Below are positions 40,052 to 47,896 of a stretch of 64,000 nt of DNA, in pieces. The stretch covers positions 6,610,135 to 6,674,134 of the forward strand of contig NZ_LT607410.1 in assembly GCF_900091515.1 (NCBI RefSeq). Reading direction: 5' to 3'. Made by a program: the position numbers and the translations under genes. The notes under the pieces are model-generated. The model was not told the origin of the DNA. It was given only the letters and a program-made list of their open reading frames with translations, and ran no database searches. The first letter of the stretch is position 1; every line of letters begins with the position of its first letter. The stretch comes from Micromonospora purpureochromogenes. GTDB taxonomy: Bacteria > Actinomycetota > Actinomycetes > Mycobacteriales > Micromonosporaceae.

Positions 40052-40663
40052 CTACCTGGGCGCCGGGGTTGGCCACCGCTTCAACTGTTCCCGACTCATC
40101 GGCAACACGAGCCCTCCAGTGAGGCCCTTGTCGCTAAGTTGCTCCCACATGCTTCTCAACTTAACGCGCGCGATTGCGTCCTCCTGCAGAGCAGCAATCA
40201 AAACATCTACGGTGCTATGCGCTCGAATTCCCAGATTATCGGCCACTTTCCGTGCCGGGCTCTCGTCGATCAGCGCTATAGACGCCGTCTCCTGCGCAAA
40301 CACTAGAGTTTCCGACTCACCGAGATCCGTATTTCCTGCGGACGGCTCCCGCTGTTCGGCACGAACAAGGTCCCGCATTTTGTCAACCTGTGCGCGGTCC
40401 GCGCACACATGCGGTTCCCCCAGAGCGCTCCTGCTGGTTCCGATCCACGGTCGTGCAGCAGCAGCAAGCTCAAGGTTCCGCTGGCTTGAGGGACGCCTCT
40501 GCGCGTGATGTGCAACCTCGTCCGCAACCGCTGCAGTCCATCGCATGCGCTGGTGGTATCTACTTCGAATAAATCGAACTCCGCCAGGCATGCCGCCAAA
40601 GCACAAAAGCGGGCCAGTGTCGAACGCGACCATCTTCGTTGGGAAAGACGCTGTCTCAGACAT
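40052..40663 (-). CDS. PIN-domain nuclease-like protein (operon gene 4)
   Basis: The 203-residue protein has acidic residues in PIN order: Asp15 in MVAFDTGPLL, Glu49 in VADEVAHHA, Asp113/Glu116 in TDLGESETL, and Asp133-Glu134 in ALIDESPARKVA; DESPAR is common in PIN proteins of the DUF3368 type. It should be a Mg-dependent RNase or DNase. ATG 40661-40663 overlaps the stop of the receiver gene by 8 bases (ATGTCTGA), so translation is coupled. There is no antitoxin beside it. As the last gene it may be the effector, held or triggered by the upstream receiver protein. Confidence 0.75.
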   Translation of the reverse strand: MSETASFPTKMVAFDTGPLLCFGGMPGGVRFIRSRYHQRMRWTAAVADEVAHHAQRRPSSQRNLELAAAARPWIGTSRSALGEPHVCADRAQVDKMRDLVRAEQREPSAGNTDLGESETLVFAQETASIALIDESPARKVADNLGIRAHSTVDVLIAALQEDAIARVKLRSMWEQLSDKGLTGGLVLPMSREQLKRWPTPAPR

Positions 40664-41783
40664 CTTGGCTGCCCGCCTCCGCTCGCCGCCTGTCGCCTCG
40701 CGCAATCATACGGTATAGAGCCCGGTCGTCCTGGAGCTCGTCGAACCGAGCCCACGGTTCCTGAGCGAAAACTGGCCAGAAGTCAGGCGCTAAGCGGACA
40801 CAGCTAGAGGCATCTGCAACGTCAATCGGGGCGTAGTCGCTGTCAATGGTCATAACGGGCGCGTCCATGCTGAGCGTGCGCACCGGCTGTCCGTGCATCG
40901 CTGTCATTTGTTCCGCGAGGGCCGCCGCCTCGGTGAGCTCGGGGGACGCCTCCATCAGGAGATCGTCAACCAACGCATCCAGACCCGCACGCCACCAACG
41001 CCCATCGCTCAATGCTGCGAGGTGGCCCGTATACCTACACTCACCCAGCGCGGCCGAGAGCGGGGACGTGCCTCGGAGGATCGCATCGAAGTCAACCACG
41101 TCGAGCCGGAGAAGGGTCGCCGCCCAATGCCTGGGGAGGAGGAACGTCGGGAAAGGAAGGATGCGATGTGCGAACCATCGGAGCCAAGCGGTGCCCGCGG
41201 TATATGCGGCAACAGTATTTTCGGGGGGATTGCACACCTGAACGTCCGCTAATGCCCCCTCGGTCCATTTCGCGTCGGGCAAGTTCAACCAACCCTTACC
41301 CTCGTTCCATCGCAACGGATCAGAAAGCAGTGGCCGTAGCCCTTCGACCGCTTCGGCAAGGCTGTGGAGCTGATCCGCAACATTGCCGTCCTCCTTCTTA
41401 AGGACCCAGTCCAGGCCGTATTGGGCGGCGATGGCAGGCTTGCGGATCTCTACTGGAAGTCCATCGGCAAGTGCAGGAAGTTCGCCCGTGCGCAGGACTA
41501 CCGCAGCGTGATGGTCACGTTTCCGCAGGTGACCCGAAACCACGGCAGCAATCGCGAGACCATCCTGAGGCCAGTACAGGCACTCAGGAGGATGCGAGAT
41601 CGTCGACCAGTCAAACCGATGGTCGATCGCGATGACGTCAGCCCACTGCATTTCATCTGCCGTTACCGCGTCCGGCGGGCGCACCTCTACCTCGAGATTG
41701 GACGCACGCAGGCCAGCGGCAACTGATTCCTCCTTCTTGACCTCGTCGTCGATCACAAGAACTCGAGGGGTGTTTGAGCTCAC
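40656..41783 (-). CDS. Receiver-domain protein with novel C-terminal region (operon gene 3)
   Basis: The 375-residue protein starts RVLVIDDEVKKEESV. The receiver residues are all present: acidic pair Asp12-Asp13, phospho-acceptor Asp54 in ADVIAIDHRFDW, Thr99 in AVVLRTGE and Lys119/Lys120 in DWVLKKEDG. Residues about 140-375 match no DNA-binding output domain I know; they are rich in Trp and Arg (WNEGKGWLNLPDAKW; AWLRWFAHRILPFP). The GTG start at 41783 overlaps the kinase-like gene stop by 4 bases. It is likely the phosphorylation target of the GHKL protein and may control the PIN protein. Confidence 0.78.
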   Translation of the reverse strand: MSSNTPRVLVIDDEVKKEESVAAGLRASNLEVEVRPPDAVTADEMQWADVIAIDHRFDWSTISHPPECLYWPQDGLAIAAVVSGHLRKRDHHAAVVLRTGELPALADGLPVEIRKPAIAAQYGLDWVLKKEDGNVADQLHSLAEAVEGLRPLLSDPLRWNEGKGWLNLPDAKWTEGALADVQVCNPPENTVAAYTAGTAWLRWFAHRILPFPTFLLPRHWAATLLRLDVVDFDAILRGTSPLSAALGECRYTGHLAALSDGRWWRAGLDALVDDLLMEASPELTEAAALAEQMTAMHGQPVRTLSMDAPVMTIDSDYAPIDVADASSCVRLAPDFWPVFAQEPWARFDELQDDRALYRMIARGDRRRAEAGSQDV

Positions 41784-44158
41784 TCGCCTATCCTCCGACC
41801 CGGCACTCGTATCTCGATTGCGGTCTGGTATTCGGGGGACGGCTCAACGAACCGTACGCTCCCGTTGTATTCGGTGAGAAGCCGCCGCACGATCGGCAAA
41901 CCCATGCCCATGCCTTGACCTAGGACAGTGTCAACGTCAGTGGTTGTAGACTCGAACGGCCTGAACCACCGTTCCGCGTTCGCGAGGTCAACCTTAACGC
42001 CGGTATTCTCGACACGCAGAATAAGCCCCCCGTCGCTAGATGGTTCTGCCCGTATAAGGATCCGGCCTTTGTCTCCCGCTGCCTTGATTGCATTGGTGAG
42101 AACATTCGTCATGATGATGGTAATCTCAGCCGGGAAGATTGGAGGCGTCCTTGCGCTGCCTTCAAGCTGCTGTAAGACCTCGATTTGGCGATCCCTAATG
42201 GAGGTAGTAAGCAACCGAAGGCTTGGCTCAATCGCCTGACCATACGGCAGACGACGCCTTCTTCTCCGTGCGTCCGGGCCTACAACCTCCACTAGATAGC
42301 TACTTTGGCGAGCGAGGGACTGGACGAGTTCGTCAGCTGCAGCCTCGGCATCCTTGAGCAGTGATCTACGTCGAGTAGCATCATCTTCTCGCCGGGCCGC
42401 CACGGCGAGTGTGCGGACCGACTGGGCAAGTCCAAGAATGCCATTGATATCGTGCACGAACGCAGCGAGCTGCAGTCCAACACCGGCGAGAATCTGAAGG
42501 GTGGCTCGCCCTTCATCACCTTTTTGGGCTTCTTCAATATAGTCGATCGCCCGCTCAATTATCTCCAGTCGTACACTTGCCTCCGATTCACTGCCGAATT
42601 CACTCTGCAGACTTTTTAGCTGCCGACGGGTTACTGAGATGGACATCTTGATGTCTTCGTTCACACTGACATCGCCCGAAGGGGGGGCCGTTGAGCTTGG
42701 CCGCTCTCCCGGATCCGCAGTAGGCGTTTGGGTGCCAGACGAGGAAACAGCGCGCTGCAGGTCCTCCTTCAGTGCGCTTTGTCGCTGTTGCTTTGCTGCG
42801 TTCCTGTGAGCCGCTCGAACCCGCGTAAGCAAATCAATGCCGTTACGGACCAGTTCCCGGAGTGTCTCGAACGCAGCATCTTGCACGAAGCCTTCGCGGT
42901 TAACCACAGGGCGTAACGACGCAGCGTCATCCCCAGTCATAAAGACGGCGCCAGCGTATTGATCGTTGCCTTGCATCAAGAAGGTTTCGGTGCCAACTGG
43001 TTCCAATAGCCGGCTCGACGCGGCATCAAGCTTTGGATCCTCGAAACTTCGCTCCCGCCGCGAGTAGTCTCGGTCAAGGTAGAGCCAGTCGTCACCACCA
43101 TCGCCATAGGGCAGGACGCGAAAACCTTCGACGTAGACGCGTACCCCACGCGATGCCCTTGCGAACTTTTGAAGCGCTGCAGTTCGCTCCCCGATTCCGC
43201 CGATCCGCCCAACGCGGGCGTAGATTCTCGCGGAAAAGAACGGCCCATTCTTTGGGTCTGGATGCTCCCGCCGAAGCTTGTACGAACGCAGCTCGTGGTC
43301 GCTAGTCTGCTGCGCTATCGATGGTTGGATGTTGAAGCGGACACCGTCCGGCCGGGCGGATATTTCAAGTAACCAATCCGCCTGCTCAAGAAGTAGCGGC
43401 CAGAGATCGTCACCTGCATTGAGATCGCCCTCGAATTTGATGCGAAAGCCTGGGTCTCCGTCGGTCTGAGAGGAGACGGTCAACTCGCCCAAGAACGCTT
43501 CGGGAGCAAATAGCTTTCCGGGTGGATCAATTAGAAGCTCATTCGGCGGCCTGCATGAGGCAACCTGCGTAACGAAGGTCGACAGAGCCTGCGAAGTCCA
43601 CCGCCGCCTGAGCTTCTCTAGCCTGAGTTCTGTACCATGCGATTGATCGTGCCGCACGTCGAAGGTGAAAACATCAAGACCATTTTTGGCATCGTCGATG
43701 GTTTCATAGTCGTTTTCGACTCGCTCCCAGTCGATCAGCGCTTGTACGCCTCGGCGCACAGTGAGTGCCTGTGCTGGTATGGACTTGATGGTTAGACGTC
43801 GGGCGAGTTTGTGGGCGCTGAGGCGACCGACGCCCTTCGCGCCCGTGTACTGGCGGCCGTACTTTGGGCTTCGCCTGCTGCCTCTCTCCTTATAACGTCC
43901 CGCGATGCGCAGGAAGGCGCCGCGAAACACCTCGGGAGTCATACCAACGCCGTTGTCACTGACGACGATATGTCCGTCGTCGTAGCGGAGTCTTTTACCA
44001 CGTACCACGACCAAGGATGCGTCCGCGTCATACGCATTCTTGATCAGCTCGATCAAGGCAGTGCTATCGCGGCCCACGAGAAGCTCGCCCAACTCTCTGA
44101 AGAGGTGGGTGTCTACCGAGAAGCCGAACTGCTCCCGGATCTCCCGTTGCGCCAACAC
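41780..44158 (-). CDS. Dual-GHKL protein: Hsp90/MORC-like ATPase plus histidine-kinase-like core (operon gene 2)
   Basis: The 792-residue protein has two Bergerat-fold modules. The first has N-box ELIKNAYDADA (Glu37, Asn41, Asp44), G1 DNGVGM (68-73) and the G2 lid GAKGVGRLSAHKLA (from 106), as in Hsp90, MutL and MORC ATPases. The second has a HisKA-like segment AAFVHDINGILGLA (His569), N-box MTNVLTNAIKAA (Asn685, Asn689), G1 VENTGVKV, F-box RWFRPFEST and G2 GQGMGMGLPIV (from 747). A disordered Ser/Pro linker (about 480-510) separates them. GTG 44158 follows AAAGGAG; an earlier GTG at 44194 is possible. No membrane helix is present, so it is cytoplasmic. Confidence 0.85.
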   Translation of the reverse strand: MLAQREIREQFGFSVDTHLFRELGELLVGRDSTALIELIKNAYDADASLVVVRGKRLRYDDGHIVVSDNGVGMTPEVFRGAFLRIAGRYKERGSRRSPKYGRQYTGAKGVGRLSAHKLARRLTIKSIPAQALTVRRGVQALIDWERVENDYETIDDAKNGLDVFTFDVRHDQSHGTELRLEKLRRRWTSQALSTFVTQVASCRPPNELLIDPPGKLFAPEAFLGELTVSSQTDGDPGFRIKFEGDLNAGDDLWPLLLEQADWLLEISARPDGVRFNIQPSIAQQTSDHELRSYKLRREHPDPKNGPFFSARIYARVGRIGGIGERTAALQKFARASRGVRVYVEGFRVLPYGDGGDDWLYLDRDYSRRERSFEDPKLDAASSRLLEPVGTETFLMQGNDQYAGAVFMTGDDAASLRPVVNREGFVQDAAFETLRELVRNGIDLLTRVRAAHRNAAKQQRQSALKEDLQRAVSSSGTQTPTADPGERPSSTAPPSGDVSVNEDIKMSISVTRRQLKSLQSEFGSESEASVRLEIIERAIDYIEEAQKGDEGRATLQILAGVGLQLAAFVHDINGILGLAQSVRTLAVAARREDDATRRRSLLKDAEAAADELVQSLARQSSYLVEVVGPDARRRRRRLPYGQAIEPSLRLLTTSIRDRQIEVLQQLEGSARTPPIFPAEITIIMTNVLTNAIKAAGDKGRILIRAEPSSDGGLILRVENTGVKVDLANAERWFRPFESTTTDVDTVLGQGMGMGLPIVRRLLTEYNGSVRFVEPSPEYQTAIEIRVPGRRIGE

Positions 44159-44196
44159 CTGCTCCTTTCGACGGCTCGTTGAACGTAGCGGCACCG

Positions 44197-46038
44197 CTAC
44201 GCTCGGTCTAGACGCTCCAAGACTTCGACCGGGATCTGCAGCTGAGCCAGGTCTCGTGGCTCGATCTTGAGAGTGCCACCACCATGCTGTCGGGCGAGTT
44301 CCGAAAGTGCCCGTTGCCCCAAGGGGCCCCGAATCCAGTTCCCAAGGATTTCAATGGAATCCATACTAGCCGGTCGACGTCGGAACGTAATGCCATAGAA
44401 AGTGTTCGTCGGGATGGCTCCGATGTCATTTCGAATTATCCGGAATCGCCCCTTGGCCATCGGTCCGAACAGCAGGTCGGGTGCCGGGATTCGCTCGACG
44501 GCGTACCAAGGATCGCGACTCGAGCACAGGTACGATTCGTGGACACGATTGAACTTGCCTAGATCAATAAGCTGGCTGACAGCTGGATCGTTTGCGTCCT
44601 CCTTCGTCAGCCAGAGGAGCCACCGGCGATCGCCCTTCAGACCTAGCGCGTCGTGGGTCGGGTGGTCCAACGTGTCGCTGGCTAGATCTCGTAGACGAGT
44701 GGCGGCCGGGACGAATGTGCCGGGAGGGAGGCAGCGCACCTGATCGTCCGTAAGCAGAAAGAAGCGGTTGGCACCGGTAGCAACACCTCGTCGTATCTGC
44801 ACAAGGCGGGCAAGTTCCACCGCTTGTCCCGACTCCTTACAACCACCGGACTGCTTCCTACTAAACAGGAAGCTCTTTGGAGCTATACCGACTCGGTCAC
44901 GTGCTTCAGTCTGCACCGTCCGAAACCCCGAGCTCAAGTGCCCCTCTAGCCGGTGAACCAGAAGCGGGGATTCGCGCCCCGTCTCAGGCCCCACCCAAAT
45001 GACCATCGCAGCAACCGACGCGACGGGAAAGAGGTTAAGTCCGTGTGGAAATATGTGCAGTTCAATCGGCCGCCTAGTTGCGCGCCACAGATACTCACGG
45101 ACAGATTGTGCATACTCCGCCTCAAGCCAGTTCGAAGGCAATAGAAGACACAAGCTGTCTTGGGGTGCTAGGTTTGCGAGAGAGGCGGCGAGGAAATAGG
45201 TCGAGAGCCCTGCGCGGCCGCCCGGTGCGAGGTTTCCTGATGCAGCGCGAGCGCGCAACTTCACCTCTGGTTTCAAGCCTTGGTGTCTGGTGTACGGGGG
45301 GTTTCCCCAGATAAGCCGGGGCCCAGGGGTTCCTTTCCACCCGTTAAACAGCCACTCTAAAAAGTCCTGGTCATGCAAGCTCAGCCGGTTAGGCACGTAT
45401 GAGCTGATGGCTGGTGTCGCAGCCAGAAGGCCGAGTGTCACCACATTGACATCGATCGCGTGTACGTGGGCATTCGGCCACGCTTCAAGCGCTGATCGAG
45501 TGAAAGCGCCCACTCCTGCACCGGGATCGGCAACCGTAGCGAACCGCAGTCCGCGGGACTTAACGAGTTCCGTCATGTAAGTTGAAATTGACGGAGGCGT
45601 AAAGAATGTGCCGAGCGGCCGGCGTCGCGGGGCGGCAACGAGGCGCTCGTATACCTCAGCAAGAGGTTCCAAGCCACGCTCTAAGTTGCGGCGAAGTTCA
45701 TTAAGGAGATCGGTGTCTAATCGAGGAGCGGAACTTGCCCAAGCAACCACAGTAGGCGGCAAGTTTCGCGTGTCGCCTTCATCGATGGTGTCGAGTAGAG
45801 CACCGGCAACCCCTCCCAGCGCGGCTAGCAAGCCGCGCTCCTTCTCGGTAGGACCGGGAACCGCCGACTTAGGCATGGGATCACGCCTATTGGCGCGGCA
45901 CCACGACGCGAGCCGCCGTATGAACCGTTCACTTTCAGAAGGGTTGATCTGGTGCCTAGGCGCGAATTGGCGGGTCACACGTTGAAGGGAGACCTTAGCC
46001 GACTGCTCTGCGCTGCCACCCTCGGCGAGCCGGCTCAT
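44197..46038 (-). CDS. N6-adenine DNA methyltransferase, Eco57I/TaqI-like (operon gene 1)
   Basis: The 613-residue protein has GTFFTPPSISTYM (143-155), SAM motif I DPGAGVGAF (171-179) and catalytic NPPY (246-249), the order of gamma-class adenine methylases. The C-terminal half holds TaqI-type specificity features: IRRGVATGANRFFLL and, near the end, GGGTLKIEPRDLAQLQIP. I see no PD-(D/E)XK nuclease motif, so it is probably a methylase only, or a modified recognition module. ATG 46038 follows GAGGACA; an ATG at 46083 is possible. The next gene starts 38 bases downstream. It would mark self DNA or recognise target sites for the operon. Confidence 0.88.
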   Translation of the reverse strand: MSRLAEGGSAEQSAKVSLQRVTRQFAPRHQINPSESERFIRRLASWCRANRRDPMPKSAVPGPTEKERGLLAALGGVAGALLDTIDEGDTRNLPPTVVAWASSAPRLDTDLLNELRRNLERGLEPLAEVYERLVAAPRRRPLGTFFTPPSISTYMTELVKSRGLRFATVADPGAGVGAFTRSALEAWPNAHVHAIDVNVVTLGLLAATPAISSYVPNRLSLHDQDFLEWLFNGWKGTPGPRLIWGNPPYTRHQGLKPEVKLRARAASGNLAPGGRAGLSTYFLAASLANLAPQDSLCLLLPSNWLEAEYAQSVREYLWRATRRPIELHIFPHGLNLFPVASVAAMVIWVGPETGRESPLLVHRLEGHLSSGFRTVQTEARDRVGIAPKSFLFSRKQSGGCKESGQAVELARLVQIRRGVATGANRFFLLTDDQVRCLPPGTFVPAATRLRDLASDTLDHPTHDALGLKGDRRWLLWLTKEDANDPAVSQLIDLGKFNRVHESYLCSSRDPWYAVERIPAPDLLFGPMAKGRFRIIRNDIGAIPTNTFYGITFRRRPASMDSIEILGNWIRGPLGQRALSELARQHGGGTLKIEPRDLAQLQIPVEVLERLDRA

Positions 46039-46366
46039 GCGGTGTCCTCGCGGCGCAGGCTGTGCAGCGTTCATGGTCGGCATGGACAGAGTCTGCCAGA
46101 CGGCGCACCCAAGAAGCACATGCGCGTCGGCAAAGGACGGCGGCAAAAGACCATGGTCTCGCCGTCGCCGCGCTTGCGGCGTTACGGGGCATCATCCAGA
46201 GTCGCCTCTCCGCGACCGTAACACCGACGAAGATCCCCGGCCGGCCGGTCAACCGGCTTCCGCGCAGCGGGCCCGGATGCCCACATCGTCATCACGCTGC
46301 CAGCGGCATGGCGAGGCAGGTCAGCGTTGTGGGTTCTGAGCGGCGACAAAGACGCCGCGACCTGGC

Positions 46367-47701
46367 CAGGGCTCCGGCAAAGTCGTGAGGGGTGTCCGGC
46401 TTGAGGTGGTTGGTGCAGACGCGCCCTGGGTGTGGGTAGCAAGGCGGGCATGACCGCTCCGGAAGATCATCGAGGTTCTCGAGGCCTGTTGATCTATCTG
46501 AAGTGAGTCATGCCCGCGTTGCCATCATCGCTGATCTCATCGTTGTCAACCGCACCGGCCGGGACCTCTGTGGAGGATGGTGCGGGTGGGCTGCTCACGG
46601 CGTTGGCGGATCTGCCCGATCCTCGCGCCCGCCGTGGAGTACGGCACCGTCTGGTGACCGTGGTCGCCGCGGCGGTCTGCGCGGTCGTGGCCGGTTACCG
46701 CTCCTACACGGCGATCGGGGAGTGGGTCGCTGACCTGCCCGCCGATACCGCCGTCCTGCTCGGGATCGACGCAAGCCGCCGGCCGTCCGAGGCCATGATC
46801 CGCCGACTGCTGCAGGCCCTGGACCCCGAGGTGCTCGCCGTCGTGATCGGGACCTGGCTGGCCGGATGCACTCCCGCAGCGCCGGCAGGGTCGAGCAGGG
46901 CGATCGCCGTGGATGGCAAGACGATCCGCGGTTCCCGCACCGGCGACACGACCGCCCGGCACGTCCTCGCCGCCGCCGACCAGGCCAGTGGTGTCGTGCT
47001 GGCCAGCACCGACGTCAACGGTAAGACCAACGAAATCACCCGCTTCGCACCCCTGCTCGACCAGATCCCAGACCTGCACGGCGTGGTCGTGACCGCCGAC
47101 GCGTTGCATTGCCAACGTGAGCACGTCGCCTACCTCGCCGAGCGCGGCGCCCACTGGATCCTCACGGTGAAGGGCAACCAGCCCAGCCTGCACCACCAGT
47201 TGGCCGCTCTGCCCTGGCGGGCCGTGCCTGACGCCGACCGTGACACCTGCCGCGGCCATGGCCGCCGGGAGATCCGCACCCTGAAGATCCTGTCCGTCTC
47301 CACCGGGATCGATTTTCCCCACGCCGCCCAGGCGTTGCAGATCCGACGGCGTCGACGCCGGCTCGACCAGCCGAAACGCTTCACCACCGAGACCGTCTAC
47401 GCGATCACCGACCTGCTCGTTCACCAGGCCAGGCCGGCGCAGCTCGCCTCGTGGATCCGCGGTCACTGGTCGATCGAGAACAGAGTCCACTGGGTCCGCG
47501 ACGTGACCTACGACGAAGACCGATCCCAGATCCGTACCGGCACCGGACCCCAGGTCATGGCAGCCCTACGCAACGCCGCCATCGGCGCCCTACGCCAGGC
47601 CGGCGTCACCAACATCGCCGCCGGCAACCGCCACCACGCCCGCGACAGCAACCGACCACTGGCCCTACTCGGCATCACCTGACGACTTTGCCGGGGCCCT
47701 G
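46367..47701 (+). mobile_element. ISAs1-family insertion sequence, complete
   Basis: The 1335-bp element has 20-bp terminal inverted repeats with one mismatch (46367-46386 and 47682-47701, outer end CAGGG). The 10-bp direct repeat GCGACCTGGC flanks it at 46357-46366 and 47702-47711. It carries one intact transposase whose stop codon touches the right repeat. The gene-free left part (46387-46509) holds its promoter. Intact repeats, frame and target duplication point to a recent insertion. Confidence 0.93.
46510..47682 (+). CDS. ISAs1-family DDE transposase
   Basis: The 390-residue protein has the family's N-terminal domain ([18 protein letters not shown]) and the DDE residues: Asp135 in [11 protein letters not shown], Asp197 in [10 protein letters not shown] and Glu323 in [14 protein letters not shown] with the following [12 protein letters not shown]. 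Length is normal for the family and no frameshift is seen. It starts at ATG 46510. It mobilises only its own element here. Confidence 0.93.
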
Positions 47702-47896
47702 GCGACCTGGCCGGCCGACCAGCACGCCCTGCTCGCGCAACGCCGCTACCGCCCGGTGGATCGTCGAGACCGACACGTCATAGTGGTCAGCCAGCTGTTG
47801 CGTGGACGGTATCTGCGACGCTGGCGGGAACTCACCCACCTCGATCCGCCTCAGCAGATCGTTGATCAACTCGTTCATGGTCGGCGGAATCGGCAC

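Follow-up and report, generated by a model that had tools for sequence, protein, structure and literature searches.

A four-gene methylase-kinase-receiver-PIN operon of Micromonospora purpureochromogenes as a candidate mobile restriction-modification-like defence system

Restriction-modification (R-M) is usually seen as recognition and cleavage combined in one enzyme or complex. What, then, is the role of an operon in which a DNA methyltransferase is encoded together with a histidine kinase, a receiver protein, and a PIN-like protein? Such an operon occupies positions 40052-46038 of the 64,000-nucleotide stretch of Micromonospora purpureochromogenes DNA analysed here (the window; assembly GCF_900091515.1, NZ_LT607410.1, positions 6,610,135 to 6,674,134), the terminal part of one 6,674,134-base contig. 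Comparison with its relatives suggests that the four-gene unit is likely a mobile defence system; that it is, more specifically, an R-M-like operon in which a His-Asp phosphorelay stands between DNA recognition and a nuclease is a proposal to which we give even chances. In a family that inserts a phosphorelay at this point, self and non-self DNA would be told apart by another logic.

Organization of the operon

The operon consists of four intact open reading frames (ORFs) on the minus strand, with a gap of 38 bases and overlaps of 4 and 8 bases between them. The guanine-plus-cytosine (GC) content of this island is 0.593, compared with 0.731 in the remainder of the window, and third-position GC is 0.62-0.67, compared with 0.96 in the adjoining XPB-type helicase gene. 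Coordinates, GC content, gap, and overlaps, all recomputed, agree with a first-pass annotation of this DNA, which had described four coupled minus-strand genes in a low-GC island; the sequence features that it had read in each product, i.e., NPPY and S-adenosylmethionine (SAM) motifs in gene 1, two GHKL modules in gene 2, a full set of receiver residues in gene 3, and PIN acidic residues in gene 4, were likewise recovered, at the positions given below.

Gene 1 (44197..46038, 613 amino acids [aa]) encodes an Eco57I-type DNA methyltransferase, matching Pfam Eco57I with E=4.4e-7 and PADLOC MTase_II with E=4e-37. SAM-binding motif I spans aa 171-179 (45502..45528), and the NPPY catalytic motif spans aa 246-249 (45292..45303). 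G175 of motif I is present in 26/26 methylase rows of the alignment (window plus 25 loci), as is NPP, which is followed by Y in 25 rows and by F in one. Type II R-M systems include a DNA methylase bearing these two motifs, and judged by its family, gene 1 probably methylates adenine at N6. Besides the N-terminal GHKL similarity of gene 2 and the PIN-like gene, no cognate restriction endonuclease domain was found in the four proteins with Pfam, PADLOC, and NCBIfam.

Conservation as a unit

Relatives of the operon were collected from a scan of 84,980 genomes (one per species), which yielded 24 loci, and from a plasmid collection, which added two; these 26 receiver loci, designated by L numbers, span five phyla. 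A GHKL kinase adjoins the receiver in every one of them, and the methyltransferase is present in 25, the exception being L027, which ends inside the receiver gene. The fourth gene is PIN-like in 13 loci, including a truncated one (L018) and one with only a weak Pfam PIN_4 match (L015, E=0.0067), and encodes an unrelated protein of 250 aa, here called X, in 11, among them L023, which was assigned by position and by homologue; L013 and L027 are left out of these counts. Having been found again at 26 further loci, the set is no chance assembly. The co-occurrence in unrelated genomes envisaged by the first-pass annotation was thus found for kinase, receiver, and methylase, whereas a fixed four-gene set and order was not: the 13 actinobacterial loci read methylase-GHKL-receiver-PIN, while those of Pseudomonadota, Acidobacteriota, Myxococcota, and Planctomycetota mostly read GHKL-receiver-X-methylase. 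The 11 X loci include one from Pseudonocardia and one on a Rhizobium plasmid, the latter with its methylase on the opposite strand.

In a tree of 30 kinases (partial L019 left out), the PIN rows fall on one side of one branch, which has support 87/98 and is not starred. Between the four proteins, pairwise distances correlate with r=0.83-0.95 (12 rows, from the window and from 11 loci), which shows shared inheritance, not function. The kinases of L021, L023, L024, and L025 are very alike, although the assemblies are labelled Myxococcales, Acidobacteria, and Lysobacterales, reflecting either a recent interphylum transfer or metagenome contigs that were binned wrongly.

Signs of horizontal movement

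The distribution of the operon is patchy. Of 300 same-family genomes, 10 contained a match to the gene 3 profile at E<=0.001, six of them full-length and four weak and partial, and gene 3 has its nearest named relatives in Micromonospora. In Micromonospora phytophila, a version of the operon adjoins the same XPB gene, the three larger proteins being 34-42% identical and gene 4 22%. None of the four genes was detected at E<=1e-5 downstream of XPB in related genomes, where 20 regions were covered, one spanning just 1.4 kb. The GC content of the three-gene span is below that of its flanks in 23/23 loci tested, and two copies are plasmid-borne. Together with the distance correlation, these observations support the view of the four genes as a conserved, co-inherited, horizontally moving unit.

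A selfish addiction module, in which the PIN-like protein is set free once the methylase is lost and thereby stabilises the mobile unit, any protection from phages being incidental, would fit the two plasmid copies, the presence of the methylase in 25/25 loci where this is readable, and the fact that no separate antitoxin gene was recognised in the operon. Simple addiction, however, needs neither a kinase nor a receiver, and addiction and defence are compatible; we consider this explanation improbable. The constant methylase is also what would be expected if it protects the host, as the phosphorelay proposal holds.

That relatives would lie near other defence genes had been envisaged by the first-pass annotation and is borne out in Galbitalea soli, where PglZ and BrxL are encoded directly upstream of the operon and AbiEi downstream; this is one relative, and the control described next came from one genus and one site. 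Specifically, 93 PADLOC families were matched at E<=1e-8 by neighbouring ORFs of the loci (78 scanned of 151), many being models that overlap on the same handful of proteins and each being found in one ORF among the matches listed, whereas 78 control ORFs from the XPB interval of relatives gave no PADLOC match at this threshold. Among the neighbours in the window, the transposase alone was scanned against PADLOC. Enrichment of defence genes around the loci is suggestive only.

The kinase and the receiver

Gene 2 (41780..44194) probably starts with the GTG at 44158, which is preceded by AAAGGAG, the frame being open to 44194, and its product combines two GHKL modules in the manner of paraMORC proteins: an N-terminal HATPase_c_3 (aa 45-166, 43697..44062, Pfam E=1.9e-15) and a C-terminal kinase ATPase, HATPase_c (aa 691-798, 41801..42124, Pfam E=1.5e-25). 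In an alignment of gene 2 with the kinases of the 26 loci and 119 listed homologues, the presumed phospho-accepting histidine of the H-box (H581 in FVHDIN, 42452..42454) is present at 1.0 of the rows, as are N697, N701, N730, G732, F744, and the G2 glycines, so that the N, G1, F, and G2 boxes of the kinase core are conserved; the main residues of the N-terminal GHKL module reach ~0.99.

Gene 3 (40656..41783, 375 aa) comprises a receiver domain (approximately aa 6-145, 41349..41768) with D54 as predicted phospho-acceptor and a C-terminal domain of no known family (approximately aa 155-375, 40659..41321), which keeps the motifs LPFP, RWWRAG, and PDxWP and may be an output domain. D12, D13, and D54 are found in 27/27 receivers, T or S at position 99 in 26/27, and K130 in 25/27; T99 and K130 are both present in the window. 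The protein has no match in Pfam, PADLOC, or NCBIfam, and its assignment draws on these residues and on profile comparison: the family profile aligned with receivers from the same genome (20 extracted) with an hhalign value of 70.1% (E=4.1e-5), compared with 0.2% and 0.1% for two unrelated control alignments; as the four-row Response_reg_2 alignment itself scored just 2.7%, the power of this comparison is limited. In the 300 same-family genomes, the one inspected among the four weak partial matches was an OmpR-type regulator, matched over positions 3-118 with E=5.0e-4. Taken together, genes 2 and 3 hold the residue set of a two-component pair, i.e., the H-box histidine with N, G1, F, and G2 boxes in the kinase, and DD, D, T/S, and K in the receiver, from which one may predict that gene 2 passes phosphate to gene 3.

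Two other readings bear on these proteins. Residues 24-211 of gene 2 resemble BbrUII/HgiDII restriction enzymes (NF050001, E=2.3e-21), although with 76 bits over this segment only, the match does not reach the NCBIfam cut-off of 550. The likeness of the N-terminal GHKL module to type II restriction enzymes would suit a multi-subunit restriction enzyme without relay, the GHKL protein being a DNA-engaging motor, the receiver a structural partner, and the PIN-like protein a DNase, and so would the DNA endonuclease Vsr encoded by the fourth gene of an operon family reported in 2021 (see below). A purely structural role, on the other hand, needs no near-invariant histidine, kinase boxes, and receiver aspartates across phyla, and this reading appears quite unlikely. 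Regulated methylation is the other reading: in an epigenetic switch of this sort, the kinase-receiver pair would govern the methyltransferase or other genes, and RNA would be the target of the PIN-like protein. It draws on gene 3, in which Pfam, PADLOC, and NCBIfam revealed no recognised output domain, DNA-binding or enzymatic, so that various outputs are conceivable; control of R-M systems was also weighed by the authors of the 2021 report (PMC8011034). A switch of this kind sits poorly with a unit that is patchy, GC-poor, plasmid-borne, and inserted at differing sites, that lies beside BREX and AbiEi in one relative, and that keeps a fourth gene; we regard it as unlikely.

The fourth gene

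Gene 4 (40052..40663, 203 aa) lacks a Pfam match but matches five PADLOC PDC-S70 models over about its C-terminal half (best E=3e-11), and PDC-S70 is matched by 9/15 gene 4 proteins of the family. According to PMC12988326, a PIN nuclease domain is encoded by PDC-S70. Single weak Pfam PIN matches occur among the gene 4 proteins (E=0.0031 and 0.0067). The acidic residues D15, E49, and E116 are present in 15/15 proteins, and an acid at position 134 (E134 in the window) in 14/14, one protein being truncated. A comparison set of DUF3368 (PF11848) was uninformative, as 0/13 genomes matched and the control genomes likewise gave none.

In 11 loci the PIN gene is replaced by the X family of ~250 aa with conserved HFHxQ and PRLP (L021:7358-8110, L016:11094-11867, L020:11110-11853, L026:11126-11863, L003:11122-11829, and others). 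It has 95 homologues, for none of which a Pfam domain is listed, and neither Pfam (6/6 proteins scanned) nor PADLOC (one scanned) gave a match. As an unrelated protein stands at this position outside the PIN clade, PIN is one of at least two fourth-gene types. Two loci depart further: Galbitalea soli, whose locus also holds BREX and AbiEi, has tandem PIN-like genes behind the receiver (L010:11145-11768 and L010:11753-12385), and in the Rhizobium plasmid copy the X gene is followed by a gene for a protein annotated as a GIY-YIG nuclease with a DUF4357 domain (L003:11842-12771).

Relation to described systems

The first-pass annotation had taken this kind of operon to be undescribed. That claim does not stand, as operons of methylase, paraMORC histidine kinase, receiver, and nuclease have been in print since 2021: in its accessible parts, the report of Bellieny-Rabelo et al. 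(2021, PMC8011034) describes a C5-methylase, a HEF_HK kinase, a Response_reg_2 receiver, and often Vsr. These operons and the one studied here share a methylase, a soluble kinase, a receiver-like protein, and a nuclease, and their kinases, like gene 2, combine an N-terminal HATPase_c_3 with a C-terminal HATPase_c. Response_reg_2 was matched in 4/150 genomes of the phylum of L020 (Variovorax), and at one such locus, L032, all four Pfam assignments of the HEF_HK/Response_reg_2 operon were confirmed. The kinases of 3/4 of these loci are related to gene 2 (phmmer E=1.8e-10 to 2.9e-7; one BLASTP E=2e-11). Membership in the PF19191/PF19192 family was nevertheless rejected, as neither domain was detected although the positive controls worked. 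At E<=1, HEF_HK (PF19191) was found neither in gene 2 nor in two X-clade kinases (positive control E=1.8e-22), and Response_reg_2 (PF19192) was not found in gene 3 (positive controls E=1.6e-33 and 6e-31). Comparison of the gene 3 profile with Response_reg_2 receivers (four rows on that side) gave 0.1%. PF19192 had no match in 60 same-phylum and 14 locus-carrying genomes, where the controls were likewise without match. The operon studied here has an Eco57I-type methylase and a PIN-like protein instead of a C5 methylase and, often, Vsr, and its proteins are shorter: 804 aa compared with ~1000 for the kinase and 375 aa compared with ~590 for the receiver. With a kinase that is a distant relative and three other genes of other families, it is a variant of the kind reported in 2021, not a member, i.e., a parallel and more compact version of the methylase-paraMORC kinase-receiver-nuclease arrangement. 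For the combination of Eco57I-type methylase, paraMORC kinase, receiver, and PIN, no description was recognised in the literature searched, which was mostly open access, with few preprints and without supplementary tables.

ParaMORC R-M operons were described by Iyer et al. (2008, PMC2292703). As far as these sources were available, BbrUII/HgiDII and MORC/paraMORC R-M operons resemble the present one in having an N-terminal GHKL module beside a methylase, while some of their proteins carry a nuclease where gene 2 has a histidine-kinase core; a kinase with a receiver partner, present here, is not described in the parts of PMC2292703 that were accessible. Elsewhere, a GHKL-nuclease protein is described as defending Vibrio cholerae against phage, its ATPase site being needed (PMC12137116, in part), and PIN domains as being needed in two validated defence systems (PMC13092281, in part). 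A DefensePredictor figure legend in the latter source names HATPase and REC among unvalidated predictions, which may or may not represent the same system. PDC-S70, in the accessible text, is a single-gene PIN defence candidate, whereas the PIN-like gene here is the last of four, and most candidates of this sort lack experimental validation (PMC12988326).

The first-pass annotation had also drawn an analogy to Detocs. This system comprises a kinase, a receiver, and a nucleosidase effector, and resembles the present operon in combining kinase and receiver with an effector gene; it differs in its purine-nucleosidase-type effector and in that a methylase is present here. None of the four proteins showed a nucleosidase domain (Pfam, PADLOC 2.0.0, NCBIfam; the presence of Detocs models in PADLOC being unconfirmed), and the analogy, being weak for this reason, was set aside.

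Proposed mechanism

In the proposed phosphorelay mechanism, gene 1 would mark host sites, probably as N6-methyladenine, and so protect self DNA. The GHKL module of gene 2, paraMORC/HgiDII-like by family, together with the middle domain would form an ATP-driven clamp on DNA that is foreign or lacks the modification. The clamp would then switch on the C-terminal kinase, so that H581 is phosphorylated and the phosphate passed to D54 of gene 3, and the phosphorylated receiver, via its C-terminal domain, would activate the PIN-like protein, leading to cleavage of nucleic acid. Many PIN proteins cut RNA, and arrest of the infected cell therefore seems somewhat likelier than phage DNA cleavage.

What favours this proposal, judged by comparative evidence, is a set conserved in five phyla, near-invariant active sites, a restriction-enzyme-like GHKL module, and co-inheritance; patchy spread, low GC, plasmid copies, the BREX/AbiEi neighbours in Galbitalea, and the parallel C5-methylase/Vsr family point in the same direction. 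Several results weigh against it. The PIN identity of gene 4, the weakest point of the observations on the operon, has indirect grounds: the gene 4 proteins of L002 and L015 have no PADLOC match (2/3 relatives scanned singly), the top PDB hit is weak (E=0.18), and comparison of the gene 4 profile with 20 VapC-type PIN domains was negative, so that a VapC-type identity was rejected. With PDC-S70 matches in part of the family and this negative comparison, PIN identity is likely, not proven. No recognisable nuclease was found in the fourth protein of the X clade. As for gene 3, K130 is lost in 2/27 receivers and T/S99 in 1/27, the receiver matches are modest (the 70.1% and E=4.1e-5 given above), and the best PDB match, a RegX3 receiver, is not significant (E=0.53). 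The control ORFs for defence neighbours, as noted, came from a single genus and site. A pattern scan found no copy in viral contigs, and among 50,697 phage records three had a partial match to gene 2 alone, none covering 80%.

More tentatively, and with rather less expectation of its being right, one may think of a class of R-M systems in which a methylation-licensed MORC-like clamp serves as the sensor of a histidine kinase, with PIN-like, 250-aa, and Vsr proteins as exchangeable partners answering to the phosphorylated receiver. If true, DNA methylation status would be turned into an intracellular signal able to arrest the cell. With a relay-containing R-M family, the MORC-like histidine kinases that were left without a function in 2021 would gain one open to testing, and the compact four-gene version would be a handy test case for relay, marking, and output.

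Neighbouring features

An insertion sequence of the ISAs1 family (46365..47703, plus strand; NF033564, E=7.3e-60) lies ~330 bases upstream of the operon and is a neighbour outside the system. Its transposase occupies 46510-47682, and its 22-bp terminal inverted repeats (46365-46386 and 47682-47703) are 95.5% identical.

The interval between the XPB and metalloprotease genes ranges from ~60 bases to ~11 kb in the 11 related regions in which the right-hand metalloprotease was seen. Its content is variable, yet a defence hotspot is not shown, as the 78 ORFs of relatives had no PADLOC match. Fragments of the XPB-helicase gene occur downstream of the intact gene in L087 (genome G477), L082 (G502), L088 (G523), and L089 (G550), as if insertions carrying or copying the gene had occurred repeatedly in Micromonospora-like genomes. 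Insertion of the operon with a copied XPB 3' end was rejected, since the fragments lie in other genomes and none beside the operon. The window segment 47703-48895 recurs wholly or partly downstream of XPB in 14/20 related regions and is thus probably native or a repeated element, not part of the island.

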